A DNA stretch of 40,220 bases, taken from contig CANQRA010000004.1 of NCBI GenBank assembly GCA_947626125.1, positions 1 to 40,220 of the forward strand, given 5' to 3'. Position numbers and translations under genes: made by a program. Source of the DNA: an uncultured Bacilli bacterium (GTDB taxonomy: Bacteria; Bacillota_I; Bacilli_A; RF39; UBA660). A model generated the notes under the pieces. It was not told the origin of the DNA, ran no database searches, and saw nothing but the letters and a program-made list of their open reading frames with translations. This document shows positions 11,057 through 32,879 of this stretch, piece by piece. Position 1 is the stretch's first letter; each line of letters starts with the position of its first letter.

Positions 11057-11094
11057 TTGAACATGTGCAAGAACTTTAAATAATAGAAAGCGTG

Positions 11095-12738: not shown

Positions 12739-12746
12739 ATTATGTT

Positions 12747-13219: not shown

Positions 13220-13224
13220 TTTTG

Positions 13225-13257: not shown

Positions 13258-13265
13258 GGAGTAAT

Positions 13266-13341: not shown

Positions 13342-13351
13342 TTAAAAAATT

Positions 13352-13377
13352 AACTTCCTAGATTGGGAAGTTTTTTT
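13352..13377 (+). terminator. tRNA-Asn terminator
   Basis: AACTTCC (13352-13358), loop, GGAAGTT (13366-13372), then a T-run to 13377. Confidence 0.85.
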
Positions 13378-13540
13378 GTGGTTATGCAGTGTGCTACCTT
13401 TTATTAGTTATTAATTTTTTAAAATATTGATTCTGTTTTTTGTCAGTATTTAGGTAATAAAATACACGTGTTTTTTAAATTAAATTGTATAAATAATATT
13501 AAATAAAGTGTATAATATATTTTATAAAGGAGAGGGTAGT

Positions 13541-15498: not shown

Positions 15499-15671
15499 CT
15501 GTTAAAGATATTGTCATCATTGATTATGATGTAATAAATATTTAATGAAACTAATTTAGTTTATGCTTGTTTTGTTATATATCAATTATCGAAGGACGTC
15601 TATTTGTGTCAAATTTACAAATTTTTGGCGATTTTCTCAATTTTTTTGTTATAATCAAATTGGGTGAGGAA

Positions 15672-17363: not shown

Positions 17364-17388
17364 TAATATTCAGCCTATGCTTGAATGA

Positions 17389-17411
17389 AACGAACCTTTG
17401 GGTTTGTTATT
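17389..17411 (+). terminator. Weak terminator after the J-domain gene
   Basis: AACGAACC (17389-17396), TTTG loop, GGTTTGTT (17401-17408), then ATTT. The U-run is short. A TATAAT box follows near 17445 for the next gene. Confidence 0.5.
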
Positions 17412-17473
17412 TAGTTATAGTTGTATTTTAAGTAAAAATTTGCTATAATATCTTTTCACAAAGAGGGGATAAT

Positions 17474-18094
17474 ATGGGATTTTTGTCTAATAAAAAACGA
17501 TATGCAGTTACTGAATCAAAATATAATGAGCTTTTAACAAAATATGAATTAGTGGATGATTTTGATGAACTTGTTGCTAAAAGAAGTGAATTATTTAGAG
17601 AAATTCAAGAATTAGAAGATAGGCTAAATGGTATTAGAAAGCCTGTATCAGAAAAAGATAGAGAAATGATGACCCGTTATGATGCGGATAAGTTATGTGT
17701 GGCTATAATTTGGGAACAATTTGAATTGTTAGTTAAAGTGTTTAACTATGATTATAGAGGGGACTCTTATTGGAAAGGAGACATTCTTAAATATCACTAT
17801 TTTTATAAAGATATAGATTATGCCAATAATTATATTGCTTTTGCTGAAGGTAAAGTGAATAAAGACAAGTCAAATGTTAATGTATTAGGTTTTGTAGGAT
17901 ATTCCAAATTAGCCAAATTGATTGGTCAAAAATTGCCAAAAGATAAAAGTGTATCTCTTTTAGAAATTAAAGAAGCATTGAAAGTTTTTGATAATTTTGA
18001 TTTAACGAAAGTAAACATGGAAGAAATAATTTATAGTTTAGAGTCTTTACAAAAAAATCAAAGAAAAGGTAAAGTTAGAAAATTAGCAAGATAA
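17474..18094 (+). CDS. Paralogue 1 of a tandem coiled-coil family
   Basis: A 206-residue protein, ATG after AGAGGGG. The N-terminus carries the motif shared by all three members: KYNELLTKYELVDDFDELVAKRSEL, continuing as coiled coil (REIQELEDRL). The middle is an alpha/beta domain and the end (SLLEIKEALKVFDNFDLTKVNMEEIIYSL) corresponds to the C-terminal part of paralogue 3. The last residues are basic (QRKGKVRKLAR). No known family recognised. It is the shortest member because its coiled coil is reduced. The next member begins 18 bases later. Confidence 0.8.
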   Translation: MGFLSNKKRYAVTESKYNELLTKYELVDDFDELVAKRSELFREIQELEDRLNGIRKPVSEKDREMMTRYDADKLCVAIIWEQFELLVKVFNYDYRGDSYWKGDILKYHYFYKDIDYANNYIAFAEGKVNKDKSNVNVLGFVGYSKLAKLIGQKLPKDKSVSLLEIKEALKVFDNFDLTKVNMEEIIYSLESLQKNQRKGKVRKLAR

Positions 18095-18112
18095 TATTAG
18101 AAAGGTGATTTT

Positions 18113-18823
18113 ATGGGAATGTTAGATTATTTTAATTTGAAAAGAAAGTATAATGAGTTATTAACTAAATATGATATAGCTGATGATTTACAATCTATTC
18201 TAGAAAAAAGAAGTGCTTTACATAAGGAAAATGCAGAGCTTAGCCAAAGTATTACAAGTAAGAAAGAAGAGGCTGAGGCACTAGAAAAAAGAATCGAAGC
18301 ATTAAAAAGCATGCTAGGCGGTTTAGAATCTATTGCGGAAATAGAGGCCCGGGAAAAGAAATTATTAGATGAGAAAACAAAAAAGTTTGCAACTAGTAAT
18401 TTGATTATTGCCTTATACAATAGAAAAGGAACGGAAGGTACTTTACTTGATGCTTTTGTATTTACTGGCCAAATAACTTATATGCATGGTTTAGTAATGG
18501 CTTCCGAGTATCAAAGCTTAAGTGGTAGTTTGTCGGTGACTTTGAAAGATAAAACTATTTGGTCTACTCTAAGTAACAAAGTAGCTCAATCCGACAATAA
18601 AAAAGTCTATAATGCCAACATAAATGATTGGGTATCTTTTGAAGAAGTGTGTAAAGCTTTTGATATCCCTTTATATTTAGAAAACGAAGTAACTTATGAA
18701 GAAGTGATGGAAGTTTTAAAAAAAATTAAGTATTTATATCCAGCTTATTTAAAATACTGCTTAACATTGTCCGACTTTTTAGAAGATATTAATAAAGCAA
18801 AAAATAGGAGTAGAGTAAGATAA
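18113..18823 (+). CDS. Paralogue 2 of a tandem coiled-coil family
   Basis: A 236-residue protein, ATG after AAAGGTGATTTT. Motif at residues ~11-35: YNELLTKYDIADDLQSILEKRS, then a coiled coil to about residue 85, then a domain with GQITYMHGLVMASEYQSLSGS and KKVYNAN..DWVSFEEVCKAF...LYLENEVTYEEVM. Those blocks recur in paralogue 3 (KKVYNATWYSSISFEEIC...LYLEKEVTYDEIM), so the two are close copies. No signal peptide or membrane helix is seen; cytoplasmic. Function unknown. Confidence 0.8.
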   Translation: MGMLDYFNLKRKYNELLTKYDIADDLQSILEKRSALHKENAELSQSITSKKEEAEALEKRIEALKSMLGGLESIAEIEAREKKLLDEKTKKFATSNLIIALYNRKGTEGTLLDAFVFTGQITYMHGLVMASEYQSLSGSLSVTLKDKTIWSTLSNKVAQSDNKKVYNANINDWVSFEEVCKAFDIPLYLENEVTYEEVMEVLKKIKYLYPAYLKYCLTLSDFLEDINKAKNRSRVR

Positions 18824-18843
18824 TATTTAGAAGGAGTTTACAG

Positions 18844-19632
18844 ATGAATAAAATTAAGTTAGCAAAATTACAAAGAGAATATGATGAATTATTAACTAAG
18901 TATGATATTGCTGATGATTTACCATCTTTACTAGAAAAAAGAAGTAGCCTACATCAAGAAAATGATAAATTAAGTCAAGAAATTAGACAAAAAATAGCTT
19001 TGCTGGGTGCATATCAATCTTTAGAAGTATTAAAAGATGAAGTATCTTTAAAAGAAGAAGAATTGACTGACTTAGAAACACGAGTTGAGCAGTTAAAAAA
19101 TATTTTAGGAAACTTAGAATCACTCGAAAAAGTAAGAGAAGAAATTGTCACTTTAGAAAATAGAAAGAAACTCTTACAAGGAAAAAATATTCGAAAATAT
19201 GACCCTAGTAAAATTTTTTACTTCATTTATAGTGGATTATCTCCTGATGAAGAAATTGATTGCCCACATAGACTAGGGGTTTTTATTTATCAAGGTGATG
19301 TGGAATATGTGAGTGATGATGAAACTTATAAATGTAGTGAATATAAGAGTATTGGTGGAAGTATATGGTTGGCGGTAAGTAATTATGATGATGTAGTATG
19401 TGAATCAACGAAAAAAGTGTATAATGCAACATGGTATTCTTCTATTTCCTTTGAAGAAATATGCATAACGATAGGTAGTGAACTATATTTAGAAAAAGAA
19501 GTAACATATGATGAAATAATGCAAGTTATGGCTGTTTTTAATAACTATGATTTAGATGAATTTTCTTTAGAAGAAATAGTTCAAGATTTATGTGAAAAGC
19601 AAAGAGAATTACGAAGAGAAATTGCTAAATAA
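18844..19632 (+). CDS. Paralogue 3 of a tandem coiled-coil family
   Basis: A 262-residue protein, ATG after AGAAGGAG. It has the family motif YDELLTKYDIADDLPSLLEKRSSL, the longest coiled coil (to ~residue 115), a central domain with two Cys-containing loops (EIDCPHRLG, YKCSEYKSIGGS) and the shared C-terminal block. Paralogues 2 and 3 are clearly the nearest pair. It ends the cluster, followed by a terminator at 19644-19672. Function unknown. Confidence 0.8.
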   Translation: MNKIKLAKLQREYDELLTKYDIADDLPSLLEKRSSLHQENDKLSQEIRQKIALLGAYQSLEVLKDEVSLKEEELTDLETRVEQLKNILGNLESLEKVREEIVTLENRKKLLQGKNIRKYDPSKIFYFIYSGLSPDEEIDCPHRLGVFIYQGDVEYVSDDETYKCSEYKSIGGSIWLAVSNYDDVVCESTKKVYNATWYSSISFEEICITIGSELYLEKEVTYDEIMQVMAVFNNYDLDEFSLEEIVQDLCEKQRELRREIAK

Positions 19633-19643
19633 TAAGGTTTAAA

Positions 19644-19677
19644 GACTATCTAAGTATTAATAGATAGTTTTTGATTG
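19644..19677 (+). terminator. Terminator closing the paralogue cluster
   Basis: ACTATCT and AGATAGT arms around AAGTATTAAT, then TTTTTGATT. Confidence 0.7.
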
Positions 19678-19720
19678 GAAAAAATTTAAGCGTCAAGTAT
19701 TAAAAAATATTTAAAAAGTA

Positions 19721-19751
19721 TTGACTCTAACCTTAAGGTCAATGTTATATT
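19721..19751 (+). promoter_or_regulatory. MerR-type promoter with 19-bp spacer
   Basis: TTGACT (19721-19726) and TATATT (19746-19751) are separated by 19 bp, the stretched spacing used by MerR activators, and a dyad centred on CCTTAAGG (19731-19738) sits in the spacer. It lies just ahead of a merR-family gene, so autoregulation is likely. Confidence 0.8.
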
Positions 19752-19772
19752 TAAGATGAAAGGAAGGTTTGT

Positions 19773-20786
19773 ATGTTTAAAATAGGCGATTTTGCTAACC
19801 TTTTTAATGTTTCTATTAAAACAGTTAGATATTATGAAAGTATTGGTTTAATTGTTCCTAAATATATCGATGTATATACAGGTTATCGATATTATGATGA
19901 AGATAATATTTATACTATGCAAGATATAATATCTTTAAAAAAGATGGGCTTTTCTTTAGAAGAAATAAAATATTTTAATAAAGAGAGCATTAAAAATAAA
20001 ATTAAAAATTATGAGCAAGAAATATTAAATTTGCAAAGTAAAATTAAAGTTTTAAAACAATTTTCTTTTAAAGAAGGAGAAAATGATTTAAAAATGATGT
20101 TTGTAAATGATGAAAGTGCGAAAGGAAAATGGTCTTTACTCGGTATTGCGGAAAATAAAGAGGAAGCTTTGAATGAAAACTTTATGGAGGATGATTATAA
20201 TATAAAAGAATTATATTTAATGCCTCATGGGGAAAGTTATTGGGTTATTTCTTGGACGAAAGATACTATTTTTATAGGAGGTAGACCTAATCTTTATGAA
20301 ATAATAGATGATAAATTATACTTAACTATAACAGATTATTTAGATTCTAAGAATTCTAAAGTAGCAGTTTATTATAATGTTAGTCATGATGATTATACTG
20401 TTGAGGATATTAAACAAAAAGATAATGTTAATGTTGAATTTATTAAAGATGAAAGAGTAGTTGGTACTTGGAAAACAGTAGATTACATTAATAACTCAGC
20501 AAGTTTTAATCCCCAAAAATTACAAAGTAGTAATGAAATGTTGCTTTTAGATAAATTAATTTTTGATTATAATGGTAAGGTAGATGTTAGTTATACATGT
20601 GGGAAAATGTTTACTACTAATTATACTAAAGATTATGTTATTAATTTAATTTTACCAGATACTTTATGTAAATATACTTATGAGGAAATTTTAGAAAAAA
20701 AATATCTTATTATTGAGTGGAAAAGTGGGGATTATGTTTTTGGTAGAGTTATTAATGGATACTATGTTTTAGAAAAAATTGATTAG
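19773..20786 (+). CDS. MerR-family regulator with duplicated beta-barrel-like C-terminal domain
   Basis: The 337-residue protein starts with a complete MerR DNA-binding region: MFKIGDFANLFNVSIKTVRYYESIGLI, then GYRYYDEDNIY and ISLKKMGFSLEEIK, followed by a dimerising coiled coil (~85-103). The C-terminal part appears to be two related modules: KGKWSLLGIAEN... (~113-215) and VGTWKTVDYIN...LIIEWKSGDYVFGRV..GYYVLEK (~230-337), a lipocalin-like pattern seen with some Bacillota MerR proteins, probably the ligand sensor. AAAGGAAGG (19759-19767) precedes the ATG. Its own promoter has the 19-bp MerR spacer. Likely target: itself and the gene at 20816. Confidence 0.88.
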   Translation: MFKIGDFANLFNVSIKTVRYYESIGLIVPKYIDVYTGYRYYDEDNIYTMQDIISLKKMGFSLEEIKYFNKESIKNKIKNYEQEILNLQSKIKVLKQFSFKEGENDLKMMFVNDESAKGKWSLLGIAENKEEALNENFMEDDYNIKELYLMPHGESYWVISWTKDTIFIGGRPNLYEIIDDKLYLTITDYLDSKNSKVAVYYNVSHDDYTVEDIKQKDNVNVEFIKDERVVGTWKTVDYINNSASFNPQKLQSSNEMLLLDKLIFDYNGKVDVSYTCGKMFTTNYTKDYVINLILPDTLCKYTYEEILEKKYLIIEWKSGDYVFGRVINGYYVLEKID

Positions 20787-20815
20787 AAATGAATTATAAT
20801 ATGAGGAGGTTGTAG

Positions 20816-21295
20816 ATGAATTATTCTTTAGAAGAAGTAAGAAATTTATTTGAACAATTTAATTTATATACTCTAGATGATGGTACTTATGTTGCCATGA
20901 AGGTGGGAACTAAAATTTATTATTCTGACTCCGATTTTGTTGAAAAGGTAAAATTTGCTCATACGTGGTTCGCGGCAACTAAATATGGAAGGTCATTACC
21001 AACTAGTGATGCAAAACAAATTACGGACTCTGATTATATGTATGCTTTTAATGATGGGGCAAAAGAGACTTATGATTATATCATGGCAGTGGTATCTCCG
21101 ACGATGCAAGCGACAGGCCGTTTATTAAGAGAAGATGTTTTAAAAAAGGAAATAGTTGAAGCCCTAAATTATAAGTATGCTCCTTCTATTGTGAGAGGAT
21201 TATATTCGCAAGAACATTTTCAAAAATCTTTTGAAAATTGGGTAAGAATGGCAAATAATTTACCTATTTTAGAGGCAGCTAGTAAAAAAAGATAA
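20816..21295 (+). CDS. Unknown protein in the merR operon
   Basis: A 159-residue soluble protein with a strong GAGGAGG ribosome binding site, 29 bases after the MerR-family gene and ending at a terminator (21313-21337), so the two form an operon. It begins SLEEVRNLFEQFNLYTLDDGTYVAMKVGTKIYYSD, then a mostly helical region (AHTWFAATKYGRSLP, ETYDYIMAVVSPTMQ). No family recognised. Being the likely regulated gene of a ligand-sensing MerR protein, it may act on or bind the inducer; that is inference from context. Confidence 0.7.
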   Translation: MNYSLEEVRNLFEQFNLYTLDDGTYVAMKVGTKIYYSDSDFVEKVKFAHTWFAATKYGRSLPTSDAKQITDSDYMYAFNDGAKETYDYIMAVVSPTMQATGRLLREDVLKKEIVEALNYKYAPSIVRGLYSQEHFQKSFENWVRMANNLPILEAASKKR

Positions 21296-21312
21296 AGGTA
21301 TATATTTTTAGG

Positions 21313-21337
21313 AAAAAAGTCTTAAATGACTTTTTTT
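21313..21337 (+). terminator. Terminator of the merR operon
   Basis: AAAAAAGTC, loop TTAAAT, GACTTTTTTT. Confidence 0.85.
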
Positions 21338-21412
21338 AGATGGCCAAATTTTTTATTTATTCTCTAACTTTTTTATGGTAAAATAAATAATACCATTTTG
21401 TAGGAGTTATAT

Positions 21413-24400
21413 ATGGAAACAAATGAAGAGTTAGAAAATATAGATGAAGAAGATTTATTAGAGGTAGTCACGGATGATGCTCTTAAAATGTATATAAAAA
21501 ATATAAGTATATATCCTAAATTAAGTATTGAGGAACAAAAAGAATTATTTAGAAGGGGAGAGACGGAAAAACTTATTAATTGTAATTTAAGATTAGTTGT
21601 CAAAATTGCTCTTAAGTACCGAGTAAGAGCCAAGCATATGAAGTTATTAGACATTATTCAAGAAGGTAATTTAGGATTAATGAGGGCAATAGAAACTTAT
21701 GACCCAGACCAAGGGGCTTTTACAACTTATGCTGTTCCGTGGATAAAACATAGCATTCGCCGAAGCTTAGATGATAAAGATCGAAGTATTAGATTACCAT
21801 ATCATTTAGAAGAACTTGTTGGTAAATATAAAAGACTTTTAGCTAGTTTTAATAGTAAAGGTTTAGAACCAACAGAAGAAGAAATTAAAGATATTTTAGG
21901 CATAAATGATAATAAATATAAAACATTAATGGAAGTTGTCGGGCAAAGTTTTGTAAGTATCAGTCAAAAAATTGGCGAGGGTGATGGTATAGAACTGGAA
22001 AATTTCATTGGCAAAGATGAGGAAGCTTATGATACATTAGCCGATAATATGGTTGATAATAATTTAAAAATAGTGTTAAAAACTATTTTAAATTCCCAAG
22101 AATATTTCATTATTTATCATCGTTTCTTAAATGATGAAATAAAAACCTTAGATTGGTTAGCAAAGGCTTTGGGACTTAGCGTTGAGAGAATTAGACAAAA
22201 GCAAGATAGGTGTTTGCGCAAAATAAGGCCTTACATGGAAGAAAATAGTCAAAAGTATCGCGAAGCTTTAACCTTAGTTAGAAGTAGAGGCAATATTGCT
22301 AATTTTAAAGTTGAACCAATAAGCCCTTTAAATATTCTTAAATATTTATATTTAAAAGATGAACTTACCGAGGAAGAAAGAAGAGTATATGAATTAGAAT
22401 TACTTGGTGATTATTATTATACCGATAAAGATTATGCAAATATATTAATGGTTGATAAAGAAGAACTTAGAGAAATTAAAAAGTCTTTAAAAGCTAAAAT
22501 CATGCAAAAATTTGCTGACAAAAAAGCTTTTAAAAATTATAAAGAAGACAAGATAAAAACATACGGCTCAGAAATATATTCCATTTTTAAAATAGAAAAT
22601 GTGGTATTCATTGATTACCAAAGGCTGTATGAAAAATATGCGTCCTTAGATTATGATACGATGATAACTTATTTTAATGAAGCTCAGTATGAATTAAACA
22701 AGGATGAATTAACTCTCATTGAGAGATTTTATAGTAAGTTAGATGGTACAGTTACTAATAAGTCATTTTTAGAACAAGCAGTAAATATTATTAAATTTGG
22801 TTTCAATAAAAAAGAAAAACATTTATCATACAGCAAATTATATACTACATACTTGAAAAATAAAGATATCTTTTCTCTAGATGAACAACAATTTATTAGC
22901 ATGTATATTTTTAATAAAGATTATGATAAAGCTCTCTTAAAGAATAATCCTTATTATAAATCTAAAAATCTAAGAGCAATATATAAACATTACTATATAA
23001 ATCAGTTAGAAAAACTATATTATAATATTTATAGATTTAGTGAGAATACCCTAGATAAAAAAATATGGTTAAAAGTAAAAAAACAATATAAAGAGAGATT
23101 AAGTGAGGAGAGAATCTTATTATTAGATTTATATTTTGGTGTTAATGATGAGCCTCTTTCCATTATGGAATTATCCCAAATGTTTCATAAAGATTACGAT
23201 AAACTTAATGACTTTATTCAAAAAACTTTAATTTATGTTCGTTCATTATACATAGGGAGAAGTAATAGTCTGGAGATTAATAAAAAGCTTTATATTCCTT
23301 ATGTAAAGAAACCTTATTATGATTTTCCTTTAGAAACGAGAAATATTTTAAAAATGTTTTTGATAGATAATTTATCTTATGAAGAAATAGCTAAAAAAAC
23401 GAATTTAACCAAACCTAGAATTTCTAATATTATTACGGATGGTTTACGAAAATGTGATTATTACCGGTTCAATTTAAATGAAGTTTTGATTATCAGTAAT
23501 GAGGAATTAAATAATTTTTTTGCTTATTATGAAGAAAGTTTTTCGGAAAAAGAAAGACAAGTTATTAAACTTAAATTTAGGCGTTATTTAAATAATGATG
23601 ATATTGCTAAACAAATACAGATAAGTAAACAAGAAGTTAATCGCCTAATTGCTCATTTTAATAGCCTATATTATAAATATCAAATTAAAGATGTTAAGAT
23701 TACCCGTGATGATTATATAAATGAGTTAAATTTACATCCTAGTGAAAGTGTTTTGACTAATAATGAAGCCTTGTTTATCTCTTTAAGTTTAGGGATAAAA
23801 TGTTCATATAATCCTGATGGTATTATGTTAAGTAAAGAAGAATTAATGGCCAAATTTAATTTAACTATTAATCAATATTTTAAATTAAAAGACAATATTA
23901 AAAATAAATTAAAGGCAAGAAAAATAAATCTTTTAAAACCCTTTGGTTATATGGATAGAAAAAATTTGGATAATGTTCTTGATGATGTTCATTTACCAAT
24001 TACTAAAGAAGATAGAGAGTTAATTTGCTATCTATTTGGCTTAAAAGGGTATCCTTATTTAACTATTGAGGAACTTATTAACACCAATAAATATGATGTT
24101 AGTAATTTAAAAAGGAAATATCAAAGAGCGATTATTAATATATATAAATATCTTAATAAAGAGATTGATGGTATTATCGATTATGAAACAGATATTGAAC
24201 CATATTTAAAATATTTCCCCCTTTATGAACGTGAAAAAATAAATGATGCTTATAAAGATGGTTTATCTTATGAAAAAATTGCGGCTAAATATAATTTAAC
24301 TTTTAATGTAGTTTGTAAATTAATGCAAAAGATTAATTTTCGTTTGTATGAGCTCCAAAATAGTAAAAAAGCTAAACAATTTGATTTTGAATATTATGAA

Positions 24401-25015
24401 TTAGTAAAAAATGAACCCGACTTGTCATATTATGGCAATGTTAAATTAGCTCAAGAAGTATTTGCTTTGCATTTTGAAGAGTGTTTAACATATCCTGAAA
24501 TAGTTACGAAGTTAGGCCTTAATTGTAAATCTAGTGTGCTTAGTAAGATGGTTTATGATTTAATGCTTAGTGTTTGTAAATATAAAGATGGTTATCGAAA
24601 AACAATTTCTTTTTCTTATGAAGAGATTAAAGACTATTATGAAAGACATGAAAGAGCGATGGATAACTGTCAAAAGCAATTGTATGCAAGGTATTTTAAA
24701 AGAGTTAAAGGATTAAATGGGTTAAATGTTAATATTGAACCGTCATATCAAATAATTAATGATTTAATTCAAGAACGGTTTACTAATGCTTCTAGATTAG
24801 AAACAGCAACAAAAAGTGAGGTATATGCTTTATTAAAAAAACATTATCATGAATTAACCCTAAAAGAAAAAAATAGTTTAATGATTTTATTTGGAATAAG
24901 TGAAAGAGATTTTATGAATGGTAAAGATTTAAAACATGTTTATAAATTATTAAATACTCTAGATATAAAAAGAAGTAGATTAATGGATTTGCCAAGAACT
25001 TTAAATAATTTATAA
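21413..25015 (+). CDS. Giant sigma-70 factor with serial sigma4-like HTH repeats (copy A)
   Basis: Sigma factors give RNA polymerase its promoter specificity; usual length is 350-600 residues, this one has 1200. Residues 22-50 match region 1.2 (DDALKMYIKNISIYPKLSIEEQKEL); 55-119 region 2 (NLRLVVKIALKY, LLDIIQEGNLGLMRAIETYD, AFTTYAVPWIKHSIRRSL); 125-210 region 3; 218-275 region 4 with HTH LDWLAKALGLSVERIRQKQDRCL. After that I count about eight further region-4-like units near 317-366, 564-612, 639-682, 711-752, 785-835, 866-914, 938-982 and 1012-1056, for example LSYEEIAKKTNLTKPRISNIITDGL. GGAG (21403-21406) precedes the ATG; extended -10 TGGTAAAAT at 21376-21384. Copy B at 27385 is collinear. 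The role of the tail is unknown. Confidence 0.88.
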   Translation: METNEELENIDEEDLLEVVTDDALKMYIKNISIYPKLSIEEQKELFRRGETEKLINCNLRLVVKIALKYRVRAKHMKLLDIIQEGNLGLMRAIETYDPDQGAFTTYAVPWIKHSIRRSLDDKDRSIRLPYHLEELVGKYKRLLASFNSKGLEPTEEEIKDILGINDNKYKTLMEVVGQSFVSISQKIGEGDGIELENFIGKDEEAYDTLADNMVDNNLKIVLKTILNSQEYFIIYHRFLNDEIKTLDWLAKALGLSVERIRQKQDRCLRKIRPYMEENSQKYREALTLVRSRGNIANFKVEPISPLNILKYLYLKDELTEEERRVYELELLGDYYYTDKDYANILMVDKEELREIKKSLKAKIMQKFADKKAFKNYKEDKIKTYGSEIYSIFKIENVVFIDYQRLYEKYASLDYDTMITYFNEAQYELNKDELTLIERFYSKLDGTVTNKSFLEQAVNIIKFGFNKKEKHLSYSKLYTTYLKNKDIFSLDEQQFISMYIFNKDYDKALLKNNPYYKSKNLRAIYKHYYINQLEKLYYNIYRFSENTLDKKIWLKVKKQYKERLSEERILLLDLYFGVNDEPLSIMELSQMFHKDYDKLNDFIQKTLIYVRSLYIGRSNSLEINKKLYIPYVKKPYYDFPLETRNILKMFLIDNLSYEEIAKKTNLTKPRISNIITDGLRKCDYYRFNLNEVLIISNEELNNFFAYYEESFSEKERQVIKLKFRRYLNNDDIAKQIQISKQEVNRLIAHFNSLYYKYQIKDVKITRDDYINELNLHPSESVLTNNEALFISLSLGIKCSYNPDGIMLSKEELMAKFNLTINQYFKLKDNIKNKLKARKINLLKPFGYMDRKNLDNVLDDVHLPITKEDRELICYLFGLKGYPYLTIEELINTNKYDVSNLKRKYQRAIINIYKYLNKEIDGIIDYETDIEPYLKYFPLYEREKINDAYKDGLSYEKIAAKYNLTFNVVCKLMQKINFRLYELQNSKKAKQFDFEYYELVKNEPDLSYYGNVKLAQEVFALHFEECLTYPEIVTKLGLNCKSSVLSKMVYDLMLSVCKYKDGYRKTISFSYEEIKDYYERHERAMDNCQKQLYARYFKRVKGLNGLNVNIEPSYQIINDLIQERFTNASRLETATKSEVYALLKKHYHELTLKEKNSLMILFGISERDFMNGKDLKHVYKLLNTLDIKRSRLMDLPRTLNNL

Positions 25016-25037
25016 AAATAGTAAAGTTATGGTATAA

Positions 25038-25053
25038 CCCGAGTTTGACAGTT
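25038..25053 (+). repeat. IS left terminal inverted repeat
   Basis: CCCGAGTTTGACAGTT, exact reverse complement of 27136-27151. Confidence 0.92.
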
Positions 25054-25067
25054 GATGAAATAAAGGG

Positions 25068-25113
25068 AAGCCTAATTAAATACGAATTTAAAGTAAAATT
25101 AGGCTTTTCTTTT
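25068..25113 (+). terminator. Terminator inside the IS left end
   Basis: AAGCCTAATT (25068-25077) and AATTAGGCTT (25097-25106) pair exactly, followed by TTCTTTT. It blocks read-through from the giant sigma gene into the transposase, a common IS safeguard. Confidence 0.8.
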
Positions 25114-25172
25114 CGCAAAAAATATGATATTATATTTACATAAGATACATTATATAGTTGGAGTTGATTTTA

Positions 25173-27059
25173 ATGCCTCATATTGAATGTGTAAAAAACA
25201 ATGGCAAGCCCTATCTCAGATTAGCTGAATCTAGATACATAAAAGAGATTGGCCGGCAAAAAAAGTTTGTTATAAAAAATTTAGGGCCTTTATCTAAATT
25301 TGATGATGGTAAACCTGATTTTTTAAAAAGATTTAGAGAAAAGTTCAAAAATGGTGAAATTGACTTTGATGGTATTAGTTATTATTCTAACTTACCTGTC
25401 AAAAGAACTTTTGAAATTGATAATGATAAAAACTATATTGATTTAAAAAATATAGGCTATTTATTTTTACAAAGTGTTTATAACAGCTTAGGAATCTCAC
25501 AATATTTAAATCAAGTAAAATCAAAATCAAAAATGGAATTTGATTTAAATGGTTTAACTAAAATGTTAGTATTTGGGAGGATATTAAATCCAGCCAGTAA
25601 AAAGAGAACTTACGAAGAAAGAGACCAATATTTATTTCCTATAGTTGATTGTAATGAAATAAAAGAGGTGTATAGAACTTTAGATGTTTTAGCAGAAAAT
25701 TCCAAAAAAATCCAAAATAGAATGAACACAAAAATTAAGAATTCATCTATTGGAAGAAAAACAGATTTAACATATTATGATGTAACTAATTATTATTTTG
25801 AAACAATGTATGGTGATGATGATATTTATGAACTTGATGAAAATAATGAAATAGTAAAAGATGAAAAAGGAAAACCAATTATCGCTCAAAAAGGATTTAG
25901 AAAAGTAGGAGTATCAAAAGAAAATCGTAAAGGGCCAATAGTTCAAATGGGGTTATTTATTGATAATAATGGAATACCTGTTTCGCATAAATTATTTCCA
26001 GGAAATACTCAAGATAAAACAACATTTAAAAATGTATTAGAAAACGAAGCTGATGAAATGGATTTAGGACATGTTGTCGTTGTTGCAGATAATGGAATGA
26101 ATGCCCAAGAAAATAAATATTTAATTGTAGATAAAGGTAATGGTTACATAGTAAGCAAAAGTGTTAAAAGAAGTTGGGCATCTCAAAGAGAATGGGCCCT
26201 AGATGAAAGTGATTACCAAATAGTAACTAATGCAAATAATGAAGTAGTATTTAAATATAAGTCAAGAATAAATGAAATAACACTTACTTATGAAATAAAA
26301 GAAATGATTAATGGCAAAGAAGAATTAAAAGAAAAATTAAGTAAAAAAATAAAAGAAAAAGAAATAATATATTGGAGTAAAAAACATTATGAAAGAGAAT
26401 TACATCAAAATAAGAAATTTATCGAATATTTAGAAAGTTGTAAAGAACATCCAGATAAGTTAAAAGATAAAGAAAGAAAAAGCCAACAATTTATAAAAAC
26501 TGTAGATGTAGATAAAGAAACAGGAGAAATTATTCATCCAGAAAAAGTAATAATATTTTTAGATAAGAAGTTAGAAAAATATAAAGAAACATTAGGATAT
26601 TATTCAATTGTTACTTCTGAAGTAGCAGAAGATGATAGAGAAATAATAAATAGATATCATGGGTTATCAAGAATAGAAGATTCATTTAGAATTATTAAAA
26701 GTGATTTAGAAGGAAGACCAATATATGTATGGACTGAAGAACATATAAAGGCTCACTTTCTAATATGCTTTATAGCCTTAACGATAATAAGAATAATACA
26801 ATATAATATACTTAAATATGAAAATAAATCTACATTAAATGTAGATGGCTGGGAACAAGGAATAACAGCCGAAAAGATAAAAGAATCTTTAAATAATTTA
26901 AAGGCGTGTTCAGATAAAAATGGAGTATGTTTAATAAGTACTCCAACAGTAGAATTTAAAAAAATAGTTAAATCTTTAGGGTTAGAAATACCAGATTTAA
27001 CTACCATAGACAAAATAGATAAATTTAAAAATATATTAAATAAAGACATTTTTATGTGA
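25173..27059 (+). CDS. IS1634-family DDE transposase
   Basis: The enzyme cuts and joins the ends of the surrounding element. I take ATG 25173 (MPHIECVKN) rather than the in-frame TTG at 25158, because GGAG at about 25159-25162 gives usable spacing; length 628, intact. DDE signature: first Asp in YYDVTNYYFET, second in VVVADNGMNAQEN, Glu in GLSRIEDSFRIIKSDLEGRP, which is the IS4/IS1634 Y-(2)-R-(3)-E-(6)-K type block. GHF-like AHFLICFIALTIIRI follows. With intact ends and reading frame the copy may still be mobile. Confidence 0.92.
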   Translation: MPHIECVKNNGKPYLRLAESRYIKEIGRQKKFVIKNLGPLSKFDDGKPDFLKRFREKFKNGEIDFDGISYYSNLPVKRTFEIDNDKNYIDLKNIGYLFLQSVYNSLGISQYLNQVKSKSKMEFDLNGLTKMLVFGRILNPASKKRTYEERDQYLFPIVDCNEIKEVYRTLDVLAENSKKIQNRMNTKIKNSSIGRKTDLTYYDVTNYYFETMYGDDDIYELDENNEIVKDEKGKPIIAQKGFRKVGVSKENRKGPIVQMGLFIDNNGIPVSHKLFPGNTQDKTTFKNVLENEADEMDLGHVVVVADNGMNAQENKYLIVDKGNGYIVSKSVKRSWASQREWALDESDYQIVTNANNEVVFKYKSRINEITLTYEIKEMINGKEELKEKLSKKIKEKEIIYWSKKHYERELHQNKKFIEYLESCKEHPDKLKDKERKSQQFIKTVDVDKETGEIIHPEKVIIFLDKKLEKYKETLGYYSIVTSEVAEDDREIINRYHGLSRIEDSFRIIKSDLEGRPIYVWTEEHIKAHFLICFIALTIIRIIQYNILKYENKSTLNVDGWEQGITAEKIKESLNNLKACSDKNGVCLISTPTVEFKKIVKSLGLEIPDLTTIDKIDKFKNILNKDIFM

Positions 27060-27135
27060 CTTAAATAGAATATTAAGGGCAAAATGCCAAGAAGCCTTAT
27101 AAATACTGGTCAAAATGGGGTCCCTCCGATGCTTT

Positions 27136-27151
27136 AACTGTCAAACTCGGG
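27136..27151 (-). repeat. IS right terminal inverted repeat
   Basis: AACTGTCAAACTCGGG, exact reverse complement of the left end; the next base begins the relic of a third giant sigma gene. Confidence 0.92.
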
Positions 27152-27337
27152 ATTTTAAGAACATATGGTAAAAAATTAACACATAGAACGAAAACAAAAT
27201 TAATGGATATATTTAATATAAGGGAAAGAGAACTTATGAATGGTAAAGAAATAAATCACGTTTATAGATTATTAAATACTCTAGATATAAAAAGAAGGCA
27301 AATAATGGATTCGAGCAGAACTTTAAATAATTTATAA
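27152..27337 (+). pseudogene. 3' relic of a third giant sigma gene
   Basis: Directly after the IS right end, an open frame of 61 codons plus stop reads ILRTYGKKLTHRTKTKL...IRERELMNGKEINHVYRLLNTLDIKRRQ...TLNNL. It matches residues ~1146-1204 of copy B with near-identical DNA, and its last residues (RTLNNL) and 3' flank (AAAAATAGTAAAGTTATG) match copy A. It therefore is the C-terminal end of another paralogue whose first ~1145 codons are missing. No start or ribosome binding site is left. Confidence 0.9.
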
Positions 27338-27354
27338 AAATAGTAAAGTTATGA

Positions 27355-27379
27355 TATAATAGATAGCTAAGTCGGTGAT
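27355..27379 (+). promoter_or_regulatory. -10 box and ribosome binding site of giant sigma copy B
   Basis: TATAAT (27355-27360) sits just after the relic's stop; a TTTATA (27331-27336) 18 bp upstream may be the -35. The ribosome binding site is GGTGAT (27374-27379). The same AAAGTTATG(G/A)TATAA block follows copy A at 25023-25037, where the IS interrupts it: the promoter position of the lost third copy. Confidence 0.65.
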
Positions 27380-27384
27380 ATTTA

Positions 27385-30300
27385 ATGTTAGATGAAGAAT
27401 ATGAAAAAATAAATGAAGAAGATTTATTAAAGGTTGTTACAGATGATGCCCTTAAAATGTATATTAGAAGTATAAGCATATATCCTACATTAAGTGTGGA
27501 AGAACAAAAAGAATTATTTAGAAAGGGCGAGACCGAGAAGCTTATTAATTGTAATTTAAGATTAGTCGTTAAAGTTGCTCTTAAGTACCAAGTAAGAGCT
27601 AAGCATATGAAACTATTAGATCTTATTCAAGAAGGTAATTTAGGTTTAATGCGGGCAATAGAGACATATAATCCTGATGAGGGAGCTTTTACAACTTATG
27701 CCATTCCCTGGATAAGACAAAGAATTCGACGAAGCTTGAATGAAAAAGAAAAAACTATTAGAATACCTGTTCACTTAGAAGAAACTATGAGTAAATATAA
27801 AAGAGTTGTAGAAAGTTTTAGTAACAAGGGATTAGTACCAACAGAAAAAGAAGTAAAAAAAATTTTAGGAATTGGCGATGAGACTTATAAAAGCTTAATG
27901 ATTGCATTAAATAAAACTGTAGTAAGTATTAATCAAAAAGTTGGTGATGATGAAGATACCGAATTAGAAAATTTTATTCCTTCGGAAACCAATGAATTAG
28001 AAAAATTTACTAATGCTTTTTTAGATGAAGAATTAAAAAAAGTTTTAAAACAGGCTTTAAGTCCTTTTGAATATTACATTATTTACTACCGAATTTTATG
28101 TGACGAAAAAAAGACTTTAGAAGAAACAGCGAAACCCTTTAATTTAACTAGAGAAAGAATAAGACAAAAAGAAGAAAAAACCTTAAATAAAATTAAGCCA
28201 TATCTCCAAAGCGACAGTGCTAAATATTATAATGCATTACAAAAAATAAAAGCTAGAGGCCCTCTTGTTCAATTTAAAACAACACCTTTATCTCCTAATG
28301 ATATCATTAAGTATTTTTACCTAGAACCAGACCTTTCATTATATGAAAGAGAAATTTATGAATTAATTTTTTTAGATGAATTTAATTATTCAGTTAAAGA
28401 AATCGCAGATAAATTACATTTATCTTGGGAAGAAGTTAAATTAACGGTGGCTAGTTTAACAGCAAAAATCACACAAAAATTTAGTAATGAAGAACTTTTT
28501 AATGAATTTAAAAACAAGATGATAAAAACGCATGGAGCTAAAATATTTGATGTCTATTTAAGAAGAAAAGAAACACAACCTCAAGAAAAAGCTCTCGATT
28601 ATAAGTATTTAGAGGATAAATATAGTAGTTTAAGCATAGAAGAAATTATGAACTATTTTAATGATGTTCATTATGAGCTTAATAATAAAGAAATAGAATT
28701 ATTACAAAAATTTTTTGCCATTCCGGAGAAATTATATATATCCACAAGGATAATAGAAAAAGATGTTAATATGGCTATCTTTGGTTTTGAACATCAAGTA
28801 TCTGATTTACCATTAAAAGCTTTGTATCAAACATATTTAGAAAATATAAATGAATTTAATGATGAACAACAGTTATATTTAGAAACTTATGTTTTTGGTG
28901 TCCAATCTAAAAAAATATTTAAAGAAACTTATCCTAATGCTTATATTTCATCAACCAAAAATACTTTAATTGAAAAATTAGAGAAACTTTATTACCATCT
29001 TGATGATTTTTTCTTTCATAACTTTACGAAAGAGAAGTGGTTAGAAGTAAAAGCTAAATATGGTGATAAATTTAATGAACAAAGAACCTTAATTTTAGAT
29101 TTATATTTTGGCGTAACAGGTAAAGTATATAGTACAAAAGAATTAATGGAAAAATTTCATTTGAGTTTCGCTGAATTAAATAACACTATTAAAAATGCTA
29201 TTAACTTAGCTAATCGTTTATATGTGGGGATGAGTCATGCTTTAGAAATAGATAAAAATGTTTATCTACCATATGTTAAAGATTTAAAATATGAATTAAG
29301 CGCGGAAACAAGAAAAGTTTTATTAGATTATCTAGAAAAAAATAGAACTTATGATGAGATAGTAAAAACATATGGCCTAACACCTAACAGGGTAAGTTCA
29401 ATAGTAAGTAATGGCCTAAGAAGAATTGATAATTATCGTTATCATATTATTGAAGCTGTAGATATTTCGGAGGATGCCCTTGATGAGGTTATTGCAATTA
29501 ATAAAGATAAGTTTAGTGATAAAGAAATTAAAGTTATTTATTTGTATTATAAAGAATTTAAAACTCCTGCCGAAATTAGTAAACTAGAAAATATCCCCGT
29601 TAATAAAATAAGTATTATTATTTCACGTTTTAATTACTTTTATAGTGTTTTTAAAACTAGAGATGTAGTTTTAACTAATGAAGATATTGCTAAAGAAATT
29701 AATTATCAAGAATCAGAATCGGTTTTAACCAATGATAAAAAAGCCATCGTGGCATGGTATTTTGGCATAAAATGTTCTTATAATCCTTCGGGTAAAAAAG
29801 CCTCAAAGGAAGAACTAATGGCCGAATTTAATTTGCAAAATAATGAATTACGGAATACAATGTTAGTTGCTAAAAGGTTTTTGTTAGAACGCAAAGCAGG
29901 TATGAGAAAACCTGAATTATTATTTATTCCCCGGGAAGATTTAAGGAAAATATTACAAGATAGACATCTACCAATTAATGAAAAAGAAAGAGATATTATT
30001 TGTCAATTATTTGCTCTTAATGGTTATGCGTACATGAATTTAGAGGAGTTAGCCTTAAAGTATGGGGGAACTGTTGGCTACCTAAAAGACCGTTACCAAA
30101 ATGCTATTTTAAAAATCTACAAATACTTAAATAAAGAAATGGAAGGTACCCTAGATTATGAAACGGATGTAGCGCCTTTACTAAAATATTTTTGCCCATC
30201 CGACCGCGATTTAATAACTGAGTATTATAAAAATAATTTAAGTATTAGGAAAATAAGTAAAAAATATCATTTAACGGAAACAAAGGCTAATTATGCTTTA

Positions 30301-30999
30301 GAACAAATAAGAATAAAAATGCATGAGATTATGCATGATGAAAAGGCTAAGAAATTTGACTTTATGTATTATGAAAAAGTAATAGATAATGAAGATTTAC
30401 CTTATTATGGAGATAAAGCTCTAGCTAAAGAAATCTTTAATTTATTATTTGGGATAAATGAAAAGGAACAACTAAGTACGAATGAGATTATAACTAAACT
30501 AAATTTAAATTGTAATTCAAACGTGGTAAATAGAATTGTTATTAATTTGATGTTGGCAGTTTGTAAATATAAAGATGGTATTACTTATAAAAAAACTTTT
30601 ACTTCTGAAGATGTTTATAATTACTTTATGGAGCATGGTAATGAAATGACACCTTCCACAAGAAACCTTTATGCTAGTTACTTACGAAAAATAAGTAAGG
30701 CCCATGTTAAGGGAAAGGGTAGTGAATATATTCCTTATCATATTTTAACTGATTTGTTGATTGCTTCTAATCCTCAAGCCTTTGCTCTTAACTGGGCAAC
30801 TAAAGAGGAAGTAAAGACAATTTTAAGAACATATGGCAAAAAATTAACTCCTAAAACGAAAACAAAATTAATGGAAATATTTGATATAAGGGAAAGAGAA
30901 CTTATGAATGGTAGGGAAATAAATCATGTTTATAGATTATTAAATACTCTAGATATGAAAAGAAAAGAATTAGCAAGTGAGACACGGATATTAAAATAA
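27385..30999 (+). CDS. Giant sigma-70 factor with serial sigma4-like HTH repeats (copy B)
   Basis: 1204 residues, collinear with copy A along its entire length. Regions 1.2 (21-50), 2 (54-118, AFTTYAIPWIRQRIRRSL), 3 (RIPVHLEETMSKYKR onward) and 4 (219-273, LEETAKPFNLTRERIRQKEEKTL) are best conserved. The tail repeats the same series of region-4-like units, e.g. YSVKEIADKLHLSWEEVK, STKELMEKFHLSFAELN, TYDEIVKTYGLTPNRVSSIV, LSIRKISKKYHLTETKAN and LSTNEIITKLNLNCNSNVV. Sequence identity between A and B falls from high in region 2 to moderate in the tail but keeps unit order, so both are likely functional with different specificities. Function of the tail is inferred only. Confidence 0.88.
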   Translation: MLDEEYEKINEEDLLKVVTDDALKMYIRSISIYPTLSVEEQKELFRKGETEKLINCNLRLVVKVALKYQVRAKHMKLLDLIQEGNLGLMRAIETYNPDEGAFTTYAIPWIRQRIRRSLNEKEKTIRIPVHLEETMSKYKRVVESFSNKGLVPTEKEVKKILGIGDETYKSLMIALNKTVVSINQKVGDDEDTELENFIPSETNELEKFTNAFLDEELKKVLKQALSPFEYYIIYYRILCDEKKTLEETAKPFNLTRERIRQKEEKTLNKIKPYLQSDSAKYYNALQKIKARGPLVQFKTTPLSPNDIIKYFYLEPDLSLYEREIYELIFLDEFNYSVKEIADKLHLSWEEVKLTVASLTAKITQKFSNEELFNEFKNKMIKTHGAKIFDVYLRRKETQPQEKALDYKYLEDKYSSLSIEEIMNYFNDVHYELNNKEIELLQKFFAIPEKLYISTRIIEKDVNMAIFGFEHQVSDLPLKALYQTYLENINEFNDEQQLYLETYVFGVQSKKIFKETYPNAYISSTKNTLIEKLEKLYYHLDDFFFHNFTKEKWLEVKAKYGDKFNEQRTLILDLYFGVTGKVYSTKELMEKFHLSFAELNNTIKNAINLANRLYVGMSHALEIDKNVYLPYVKDLKYELSAETRKVLLDYLEKNRTYDEIVKTYGLTPNRVSSIVSNGLRRIDNYRYHIIEAVDISEDALDEVIAINKDKFSDKEIKVIYLYYKEFKTPAEISKLENIPVNKISIIISRFNYFYSVFKTRDVVLTNEDIAKEINYQESESVLTNDKKAIVAWYFGIKCSYNPSGKKASKEELMAEFNLQNNELRNTMLVAKRFLLERKAGMRKPELLFIPREDLRKILQDRHLPINEKERDIICQLFALNGYAYMNLEELALKYGGTVGYLKDRYQNAILKIYKYLNKEMEGTLDYETDVAPLLKYFCPSDRDLITEYYKNNLSIRKISKKYHLTETKANYALEQIRIKMHEIMHDEKAKKFDFMYYEKVIDNEDLPYYGDKALAKEIFNLLFGINEKEQLSTNEIITKLNLNCNSNVVNRIVINLMLAVCKYKDGITYKKTFTSEDVYNYFMEHGNEMTPSTRNLYASYLRKISKAHVKGKGSEYIPYHILTDLLIASNPQAFALNWATKEEVKTILRTYGKKLTPKTKTKLMEIFDIRERELMNGREINHVYRLLNTLDMKRKELASETRILK

Positions 31000-31000
31000 T

Positions 31001-31029
31001 TTGACATAAAATAAACATTTTAATATAAT
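31001..31029 (+). promoter_or_regulatory. Perfect consensus promoter downstream of giant sigma copy B
   Basis: TTGACA (31001-31006), 17 bp, TATAAT (31024-31029): exact sigma-A consensus, starting one base after the stop of copy B. Confidence 0.9.
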
Positions 31030-31056
31030 ATGTTTTTGAAAAAAGGAAGAACGAAC

Positions 31057-32238
31057 ATGAATAAAGCGGTTGAGAAATTTATTAAATTAATTGAAGAAGA
31101 AATTAAAAAGATGAAAAGAAATATTTTTATTCTTTCAAAGAGTAATCGTGGTGTTACTAAAGAAGATATAGAAGGTTTTAGAGGTATTGTAAGAGATAAA
31201 GAAATTTTTGTTGATTGGTTAAAAAATCCCTTTAATGACGATTATGATATAGGAAAAATATTTGTTAATTTTGAGGGCCTTTCCGAAACTTTAAAAGAAA
31301 ATCCGTTAAAATTAAAGGAAATTTTTGAAATTGTAATGTTTGTTATTGCAAAAAATATTAAGATAGGAATATTGCTTATAAAAGTATGTGATTTTTACTT
31401 TAATATGGATATAATTAATAAATTTCATTTTAAAAGCGCGCCGAAAGAAGAAGTACTAGCTTTTGCTCATTCTAAAAAATTTTTATATTCGCCCATTAAA
31501 AATAATTTAACGCCTCCAGAAAAAGAAATGTATCAAGAGTTACTTACTGTATCCCAAAAATCCATTGCTCATGTTAAGTCGGAAGTAGATGGGCATGAAA
31601 TCTTAAATGAATATTTAGTAAGTAAATTTCCAAATATTCAAAAAGAAGATATTCCTTTAATTATGGAAGGGTTTACTAAATGTGGTTTTACACCAAAAAT
31701 TTTACAAGATTTAGAAACATATTTAAATATCTTAACTGATAAAAAGAAAGAACCAATTATAGTGCCTGTAAAAGAAAGATGTTTAAATACTCCTCAATTA
31801 AGTAGTAAAGAGTTAAAAATATTAAATAAAGAATTATCTTATTACTATGATTTTGATAATGATAAAATAATTAGAGCGTTAACTCTAGATGAAGAGTTAC
31901 ATGTTATTAATTTAATGCAAAGATTAGGTTTTAGAGAAGACAGAATGACAAATATTTTAGCTCGAGCTAAGAATGTAATTTCTCTTAACCCAGTTGTTTT
32001 GTATGCCAGATTATATAATAAGTATGAGGCCTTTAGTGATAATGAAAAAGTAAAAGCTTTGTTACAAGAACTAGAAATGTATTTTCAAAATATCTTTATG
32101 GGTGGGGATGATGATTATGAAATTACTAAAATGTGTTTTTTAGATACTTTTAATGAGTTAGAAGAGGTTATACCGCATAATTATGAATATGAATTTGAGG
32201 TAGCAAGAACATTGACAAAAACAAATAGAGTAATTTAA
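31057..32238 (+). CDS. Unknown 393-residue helical protein downstream of giant sigma B
   Basis: Start is ATG 31057 (MNKAVEKFIKL), after AAAAGGAAG; the TTG-like frame from 31030 runs through the promoter's start site. The protein is mostly alpha-helical and lacks membrane segments or Cys clusters. The C-terminal half has repeated short helical hairpins (DIPLIMEGFTKCGFTPKIL; ELHVINLMQRLGFREDRMTNILARAKN), resembling the mTERF-like or helix-repeat style of arrangement rather than any enzyme. No family recognised. It has its own perfect consensus promoter yet lies 58 bases after giant sigma B, so a functional link is possible but unproven. Confidence 0.8.
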   Translation: MNKAVEKFIKLIEEEIKKMKRNIFILSKSNRGVTKEDIEGFRGIVRDKEIFVDWLKNPFNDDYDIGKIFVNFEGLSETLKENPLKLKEIFEIVMFVIAKNIKIGILLIKVCDFYFNMDIINKFHFKSAPKEEVLAFAHSKKFLYSPIKNNLTPPEKEMYQELLTVSQKSIAHVKSEVDGHEILNEYLVSKFPNIQKEDIPLIMEGFTKCGFTPKILQDLETYLNILTDKKKEPIIVPVKERCLNTPQLSSKELKILNKELSYYYDFDNDKIIRALTLDEELHVINLMQRLGFREDRMTNILARAKNVISLNPVVLYARLYNKYEAFSDNEKVKALLQELEMYFQNIFMGGDDDYEITKMCFLDTFNELEEVIPHNYEYEFEVARTLTKTNRVI

Positions 32239-32259
32239 AATTATATTGGAGGAAGGAAA

Positions 32260-32508
32260 ATGACTGGATTTAAAAAAGAATGTTTAATAGGAAATGATTC
32301 AAAAATGGGTAAAGGTTCTTTTTATGGGGTCCATGGCGATACAGAAGCATGCATTACTCCTCAAGTAATTGTTCCGGCACCTCCAAATGATTTAATTGGT
32401 CCTCATTTATTATTTAATCCTACTCCTGAGGTAGGGAAAAACATTCTAGAGTTCGTAAACCTAAAAAAGCTAATAAATAAAGCAAATCCTTTGGAGTTTG
32501 TTTTTTAA
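32260..32508 (+). CDS. Small protein with Gly/Pro-rich middle, unknown function
   Basis: An 82-residue frame with a very strong GGAGGAAGG ribosome binding site, 21 bases after the previous gene. It reads MTGFKKECLIGNDSKMGKG, then a proline-rich stretch (TPQVIVPAPPNDLIGP). Its last codons run through a terminator hairpin (32483-32506), so the C-terminus is encoded by the terminator. No family recognised; the good ribosome binding site is the main support. Confidence 0.55.
   Translation: MTGFKKECLIGNDSKMGKGSFYGVHGDTEACITPQVIVPAPPNDLIGPHLLFNPTPEVGKNILEFVNLKKLINKANPLEFVF
32483..32506 (+). terminator. Terminator overlapping the end of a small gene
   Basis: CAAATCC, TTT loop, GGAGTTTG (one bulge), then TTTTTT. 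Confidence 0.65.
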
Positions 32509-32564
32509 GTAGTATGAATGCTAAAAATATTATATAATTTAGTTAAAGAAAAATAGGAGTGTTT

Positions 32565-32813
32565 ATGAAAAAAAGTTTAAAAATTGTTTTAATAAGTTTA
32601 AGTGTTATCGTGTTCTTTATTGTTCTTGATACTTTACAAGCTAAAATTTGGAATAATAGCCCCATCTTAAAGATTAGAGAAAATTTAAATATAGGAACAA
32701 AAGATTTTGTTGATAAGGGCCTTTTAGTTGATACTTATTGTTATTCTAATGGTAAGAAAATAACTTTATTTAAATGGGAGAATAGATTATATAGTGATGA
32801 AAAAGATATATAG
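32565..32813 (+). CDS. Small exported or membrane-anchored protein
   Basis: Start is ATG 32565 after AGGAG (in-frame GTG at 32559 is too close). The 82-residue product has a Lys-rich start and a hydrophobic helix (IVLISLSVIVFFIVLDTLQ) that serves as signal anchor, then a ~55-residue outer domain (SPILKIREN, KGLLVDTYCYSNGKKITLFKWEN). The 'LVDTY.C.NGKK' pattern recurs in small Bacillota surface proteins of unknown role. It is preceded by a TATATAATTT promoter-like sequence near 32530. Confidence 0.65.
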   Translation: MKKSLKIVLISLSVIVFFIVLDTLQAKIWNNSPILKIRENLNIGTKDFVDKGLLVDTYCYSNGKKITLFKWENRLYSDEKDI

Positions 32814-32879
32814 GGGATTTTAATATAGAATACACAGAAGAAATGTGCAAGGAATTAATAAATGTGATATACTTAGAAT

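Follow-up and report, generated by a model that had tools for sequence, protein, structure and literature searches.

Two giant sigma70-family proteins with serial sigma4-like modules in an uncultured gut bacterium

How many promoter-reading modules can a single sigma factor carry? In the usual picture the domains of a sigma factor are fixed, one module alone reads the -35 element, and activators supply the remainder. The question is raised by a 40,220-nucleotide stretch of DNA (GenBank assembly GCA_947626125.1, contig CANQRA010000004.1, positions 1 to 40,220 of the forward strand; hereafter the window) from an uncultured low-GC gut bacterium, in which two neighbouring oversized sigma genes, P1 (21413..25015, 1200 residues) and P2 (27385..30999, 1204 residues), were found on the + strand, as are all features of these genes given below. 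The original prediction, made from the letters alone, was exact in the coordinates, lengths and frames of the two open reading frames (ORFs), and held that each protein contains complete sigma regions 1.2, 2, 3 and 4 followed by about 900 residues built from about eight region-4-like units. The assignment of P1 rests on its ORF, on Pfam and NCBIfam matches to sigma70 regions 2, 3 and 4 and on an AlphaFold2 model, and that of P2 on its ORF, on Pfam and NCBIfam matches and on alignment to P1, with which it shares 44% identity from end to end. Both proteins are sigma factors by ancestry and by the residues of their core, and the tail of each is largely duplicated sigma4.

The sigma core and the chain of sigma4-like units

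Residues 1-276 of P1 (21413..22240) comprise regions 1.2, 2 and 3, the sigma finger and the canonical sigma4, the last of which lies at 22076-22240. In both P1 and P2, Sigma70_r2, r3 and r4 exceeded the Pfam curated cut-offs (60-62 bits for r2, 28-35 for r3 and 71-89 over three stretches for r4), and region 1.2, although below threshold in Pfam, was covered by NCBIfam RpoD/RpoS models, in agreement with the predicted completeness of these regions; no region 1.1 was seen in either protein. A model of full P1 matched SigA/RpoS over the core, which is about 28-34% identical to solved structures of SigA/RpoD/RpoS type. The order of regions 1.2, 2, 3, finger and 4 is likewise that of SigA/RpoD and RpoS, i.e., of primary and group-2 sigma70 factors, but these contain one sigma4 whereas P1 and P2 contain eight more units of sigma4 fold after the canonical one.

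Residues expected to contact polymerase were conserved, and those for the -10 element in part. In E. coli numbering, D403, Q406 and E407 are contacts with the beta' clamp, and F427, T429, Y430, W433, W434 and Q437 serve in capture and melting of the -10 element. The region 2.2 motif D..QEGN and the sigma finger, which aligns to that of RpoD, were retained in nearly all homologues, and equivalents of F427, T429, Y430 and W434 (the last in nearly all) were retained in most; thus, the clamp residues have not been lost throughout the family; such a loss had been named in advance as fatal to the idea of a sigma factor with many modules. The region 4 motif RERIRQ is present in P2 and appears as VERIRQ in P1. 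The block that contacts core polymerase is 89% identical between P1 and P2 (nonsynonymous divergence, dN, 0.08) while other parts are 26-62% identical (dN mostly about 0.5-0.65). Gene conversion was considered as a cause of the near-identical N-terminal blocks and rejected, since synonymous sites there were not clearly more alike, and constraint explains the similarity better. Because divergence is distributed in this way, P1 and P2 most likely guide polymerase to distinct promoters, and the pattern is as expected if they work with the same polymerase on different DNA.

The tails of P1 and P2 are about 920 residues long and that of P2 (residues 277-1204; 28213..30996) is collinear with that of P1. 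Segments of a 13-member alignment (A2) were compared by hhalign with a sigma4 profile constructed from RpoD genes of related genomes together with region 4 of the giant proteins themselves; the highest probability obtained with 120 column-shuffled segments was 1.5%, and the probabilities below are likewise in per cent. Sigma4-like units were thus recognized in P1 at residues 314-368 (U1; 22352..22516; probability 95 over 314-364), 560-616 (U2; 23090..23260; 57 over 560-601), 634-690 (U3; 23312..23482; 93 over 645-684), 706-760 (U4; 23528..23692; 95 over 700-757), 778-838 (U5; 23744..23926; 88 over 779-834), 860-916 (U6; 23990..24160; 66 over 863-915) and 930-986 (U7; 24200..24370; 58 over 926-970). 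An eighth unit at residues 1004-1060 (U8; 24422..24592) gave a probability of 10 over 1021-1037 and is a divergent helix-turn-helix (HTH) of the same series, related to U2, U3 and U7 at up to 92, 89 and 78, respectively, in unit-to-unit comparison. In the same comparison every one of the eight units was linked either to another unit or to the canonical sigma4 at up to 97, U2 for example to U4-U8, and residues 400-545 and 1084-1150 showed no link to the series. The predicted count of about eight units was therefore borne out by profiles, unit comparison and structure models alike, but the statement that all of the roughly 900 extra residues consist of such units was slightly too broad, as about 330 of them (369-559 and 1061-1200) are helical and not recognizably sigma4. 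For the first of these stretches (22517..23089) this result was common to the profile segments, the AlphaFold2 model and the unit comparison.

An iterated sigma4 hidden Markov model (HMM) detected 54 domains past residue 290 across a wider collection of extended sigma factors and none in shuffled or reversed copies; the count of 54 includes the canonical region 4 (at about 400-470) of members of a second lineage, family B, described below. The best sequence match of the tail in PDB, the 'CAP repeat' entry 8vd6 cited in a protein-design paper (PMC12339374), was set aside since no single stretch was significant.

The AlphaFold2 model of full-length P1 (alignment A2) was all-helical, with a mean predicted local distance difference test score (pLDDT) of 80, and its tail contained eight copies of the sigma4 triad of helices (about 11, 8 and 19 residues), U1 and U8 included. 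When residues 618-1060 (six units, U3-U8) were modelled alone, pLDDT was 91.8 and the predicted template modelling score (pTM) 0.77, from which adjacent units appear to be packed rather than loosely strung. The best matches of these units among PDB chains were UPF0122, KorA and region 4 of WhiG, SigF, sigma28, SigD, SigR and others (Z 7.3-10.4 over about 55-70 residues, mostly at 1.6-2.6 A), including domains of SigW and sigmaE solved on -35 DNA. Although a Z of about 8-10 is modest for helical domains, nearly everything in the list was sigma4, sigma4-like or another HTH domain. U3 matched the sigma4-like UPF0122 with Z 10.4 (2.2 A over 70 residues) and domain 4 of SigW on -35 DNA with Z 7.3; U4 matched KorA with Z 9.9 and region 4 of sigmaE on -35 DNA with Z 7.9; and U7 matched sigma4 of WhiG (Z 9.3), SigF (9.0) and sigma28 (8.9) and region 4 of SigD and SigR (8.8). 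The sigma4 fold is accordingly supported by structure alignment for U3, U4 and U7, by profile for U1-U7 and through the other units for U8. When PDB was searched with the tail by Foldseek, no match fell below an E-value of 0.06, but the top twenty matches were all sigma factors, and the structure alignment described above told more; in BFVD a single match, to an unnamed phage protein, fell below 0.001. Taken together, these results support the description of P1 and P2 as sigma factors with a chain of sigma4-like HTH units, and the tail is not an unrelated solenoid lacking HTH folds, a result that would likewise have been fatal to the original prediction. Single tail units of P1 also superpose on UPF0122/YlxM and KorA/TrfB (Z 9-10, about 2 A over 70 residues), but these are short stand-alone HTH proteins whereas in P1 and P2 a chain of units is fused to a sigma factor.

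Possible roles of the tail

We somewhat favour the reading that P1 and P2 are working alternative sigma factors in which a series of sigma4 modules reads the DNA on the upstream side of the -35 element. A sigma70-family core of RpoD/RpoS type would have been extended at its C-terminus through serial duplication of the region-4 HTH; P1 and P2 would join core RNA polymerase, the canonical sigma4 would dock at -35 and the following modules would run upstream along the DNA and read its sequence, though not every unit need touch DNA. With modules that read upstream DNA, each paralogue would require a long composite promoter, and it would need no separate activator. As possible roles of the array, the original prediction offered contact with several DNA sites, built-in activation or a measure of promoter spacing. 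From the retained core and the nature of the tail we infer that a holoenzyme forms, that the tail contacts DNA and that the tail sets specificity. A stronger proposal, which we put forward only tentatively, is that of an extended upstream promoter code in which eight serial sigma4 modules, each with its own recognition helix, would cover several tens of base pairs from -35, so that one polypeptide would do the work of a sigma factor together with a series of activators, and tandem paralogues would diversify by changing modules.

If the favoured reading is true, a sigma factor can itself take over upstream recognition, in a family where the -35 module was duplicated about eightfold and protein length is conserved at about 1200 residues. 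Such proteins would extend a natural series for the study of DNA reading by sigma4, with one unit in ordinary sigma factors, two or three in some phages and about nine here, and would be a possible source of orthogonal promoters with long codes. An early suggestion, that sigma factors originated from repeated HTH units (PMC4802759), would also gain a modern parallel.

Charge and conservation differed between units. The isoelectric point of the tail was 8.3-9.3 in 11 of 13 members. Helices 2-3 were clearly basic in U5 (mean charge +4.8) and U6 and mildly basic in U3, U4, U7 and U8, and the recognition helices of U3 and U6, the latter with a basic patch, were conserved across members. In the recognition helices of U1, U2, U4, U5 and U7, outward positions varied while packing positions were conserved, which suits modules that read different sequences, although relaxed constraint would look similar. 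The recognition helix of U8 has almost no charge and is not basic. Judged by these features, U3, U4, U5, U6 and perhaps U7 are good candidate DNA-binding units, and U1, U2 and U8 may have a structural role rather than contact DNA. Between two close members (88% identity) the ratio of nonsynonymous to synonymous divergence (dN/dS) of the tail was 0.19-0.27, indicating purifying selection.

The same observations bear on the main rival explanation, which we regard as rather doubtful, namely that the tail is a protein scaffold derived from HTH units, i.e., a rigid sigma4 solenoid that binds partners or folds back on the core and is regulatory rather than a reader of DNA. Helices 2-3 of U1 and U2 are neutral or negative (slightly negative in the HTH of U2), as a scaffold would allow, and the predicted packing of adjacent units (pTM 0.77) is rigid; the basic tails of most members, the conserved recognition helices of U3 and U6 and the presence of sigma4 domains solved on -35 DNA among the closest structural neighbours argue for DNA reading instead. 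A precedent for the scaffold is provided by extracytoplasmic function (ECF) sigma factors, the C-terminal extensions of which are regulatory and consist of TPR (about 200 residues), WD40, SnoaL (120-150 residues) or metal-binding tails on proteins without sigma3 or sigma4 repeats (PMC8999054). P1 and P2 resemble these in having an appended C-terminal module, but both contain sigma3 above the Pfam cut-off and so fall outside the definition of ECF factors, and in contrast to the sensory or protein-binding domains of ECF tails, which are unrelated, the roughly 920-residue tail of P1 and P2 is mostly duplicated sigma4. Neighbourhood comparison revealed no partner or anti-sigma gene recurring beside the whole giant-sigma family, the lack of a conserved anti-sigma gene being again compatible with a scaffold.

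Several observations weigh against upstream reading by a working sigma factor. W433 is replaced (by P, F, I or R) in most homologues, Q437 and T440 are variable and Y425 is lost, which suggests that recognition or melting of the -10 element may differ. The tails of two members are neutral, helices 2-3 of U1 and U2 are near neutral, and the pTM of the full-length model was 0.49, a value at which the geometry of core versus tail is not fixed. One relative (L092:6507-9431, + strand, 975 residues) contains a complete tail and part of region 4 behind its own TATAAT-like promoter-like box, and regions 2 and 3 were absent from this protein and left no trace nearby, so that the tail may have a function independent of initiation as well. 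No target promoter was identified, no genome-wide promoter search having been made.

Occurrence, divergence and comparison with other extended sigma factors

The genome of origin (1.24 Mb) contains 12 sigma70 region-2 genes, half of which are related to P1 and P2 (open frames of about 1200, 1204, 1072, 680, 484 and 466 residues), evidence of multiplication in a small genome. Three of the six lie in tandem on another contig, contig 2, where sigma genes of 1052, 672 and 449 residues were noted (L040:3206-9771, - strand), the first being a shortened relative of P1 and P2 and the last having a degenerate core-contact motif. P2 alone as query found nothing in genome contigs, while the tail alignment as query detected 10 loci. 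Of 386 genomes belonging to the bacterium's own family, 23 contained matches to the tail profile, the strong ones mostly full-length (about 1180-1230 residues) and sometimes in tandem; outside the family, a class sample yielded one weak and doubtful fragment of 124 residues, and a phylum-wide sample of 392 genomes yielded none. The relatives that have names are metagenome-assembled Bacilli or 'Tenericutes', and isolate names suggest a rabbit origin for several of them. In two relatives core and tail lie on separate frames, frameshifted or split (421 + 793 residues in L113, 252 + 815 in L114), with further sigma fragments adjoining the split gene of L114.

Pairwise identity of giant sigma factors was unrelated to that of RpoD from the same genomes (rho 0.04), which speaks against simple vertical descent; in one pair of genomes RpoD was 98% identical and the giant 51%. 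Similarly, at a syntenic locus in another genome (G003) neighbouring genes were 76-88% identical and the sigma gene 50%. The family is thus accessory, fast-diverging and, within the samples searched, confined to one bacterial family. A phage origin was considered and rejected, as no relative of the tail was present in viral contigs and phage records matched the sigma core, two Vibrio phages slightly further.

Patchy presence, divergence uncorrelated with RpoD and a site on a variable island would also be seen if P1 and P2 were decoys that no longer initiate transcription and instead tie up core polymerase or promoter DNA, serving as repressors or as factors against invaders. The changes at W433, Q437 and T440, the 449-residue paralogue, which is degenerate at core-contact and -10 sites, and the homologue that lacks sigma regions 2 and 3 point the same way. 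We consider this explanation unlikely, given that most members retain the clamp motif, the sigma finger and residues equivalent to F427, T429, Y430 and W434, and that no clear defence partner adjoins the giant sigma genes. The sigma70-like MzaA does belong to a listed anti-phage system (MZA), but P1 and P2 are no match to it, with scores of 127-157 bits against a cut-off of 800 that came from the sigma part only and left the long N-terminal part unmatched; assignment to other defence systems was likewise rejected on score.

Other sigma factors with repeated sigma4-like units were found in the same bacterial family. The extended sigma factors of family B (about 490-1850 residues, e.g., L051) resemble P1 and P2 in having a sigma core followed by such units, but belong to a lineage of their own, marked by about 185 additional residues at the N-terminus and by a tail of very variable length (about 30 to 1400 residues); the member of 1850 residues contains about eight units by single-sequence HMM. 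Family B genes occur in many genomes of the family (L051:6752-12304, - strand; L043:1422-6485, + strand; and about 25 more loci), with several tandem pairs, although their N-terminal region is too divergent for a reliable census. Possibly the nearest small-scale parallel to the design of P1 and P2 is a 604-residue sigma factor of Vibrio phage 1.244 (Ackermannviridae; L109:2297-4108; PHROG 351), in which sigma2 and sigma4 are followed by two extra HTH stretches at 360-398 and about 455-494, one of which matches Pfam Sigma70_r4_2. This protein, annotated in its record only as sigma-70, is half the length of P1 and P2, has two or three HTHs and shows no detectable relation to their tail beyond its first part. 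No published description of the giant sigma factors or of family B was found in the open-access literature, subscription papers and preprints lying outside that search; thus, the design is likely to be absent from the literature, as the original prediction had supposed.

The variable island and its genes

P1 and P2 are located in a variable island (13342..32879) between the group of RNase J, a 146-residue protein and tRNA-Asn (11092-13341) and a CmpB-like gene (32880). In relatives, the interval between the same core genes holds other genes, in one case (G011) a single gene only. Between P1 and P2 lies an insertion sequence of the IS1634 family (25038..27151, + strand) with inverted ends cccgagtttgacagtt / aactgtcaaactcggg and a transposase ORF at 25158-27059. 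Directly after it is the 3' remnant of a third tandem giant-sigma gene (27152..27337, + strand), consisting of the last ~60 codons, which was recognized by a C-terminal match to P2 residues 1129-1203 and by repeat D1, which shares 80% identity with P1 at its 3' end. The locus was therefore formerly a tandem array of three giant-sigma genes, and since no target duplication was visible around the insertion sequence, this element probably deleted the rest of the third copy by adjacent deletion. The short spacer ahead of P2 (27338..27384, + strand), the first part of which recurs after P1, carries TGATATAAT, an extended -10-like sequence read directly. The variability of the island together with the divergence of the sigma genes indicates that the giants are accessory genes that are multiplied and lost quickly, and birth and death in tandem arrays were evident.

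The destroyed third copy, like the split or truncated relatives and the degenerate 449-residue paralogue, might be taken to mean that the giants no longer function and are left over from degenerate duplication in a reduced genome. This is highly improbable and largely refuted by long conserved open frames, as about 20 full-length members hold about 1180-1230 codons open across many genera and dN/dS of the tail is 0.19-0.27.

Neighbours common to a few relatives were an FAD-dependent oxidoreductase, List_Bact_rpt surface-type proteins, DUF362, an MscS-type channel and UvrA. Rows of large surface-like proteins with List_Bact_rpt (InlB B-repeat type) lie shortly downstream of the giant sigma gene at two loci (L085:14318-21685 and L086:14276-18494) and are a possible candidate regulon of these sigma factors. 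Elsewhere on the island in the window, a Schlafen AlbA_2 / RecG-type HATPase protein (13508-15049) adjoins tRNA-Asn at the island start and was matched by PADLOC to pAgo models, probably via a shared domain. Three tandem paralogues of 206, 236 and 262 residues (17474-19632; direct repeat D3) lie upstream of a MerR-type regulator, and directly after P2 is a gene for a 402-residue protein (31030-32238) with a 44% identical relative in another genome (G033; L154:13909).

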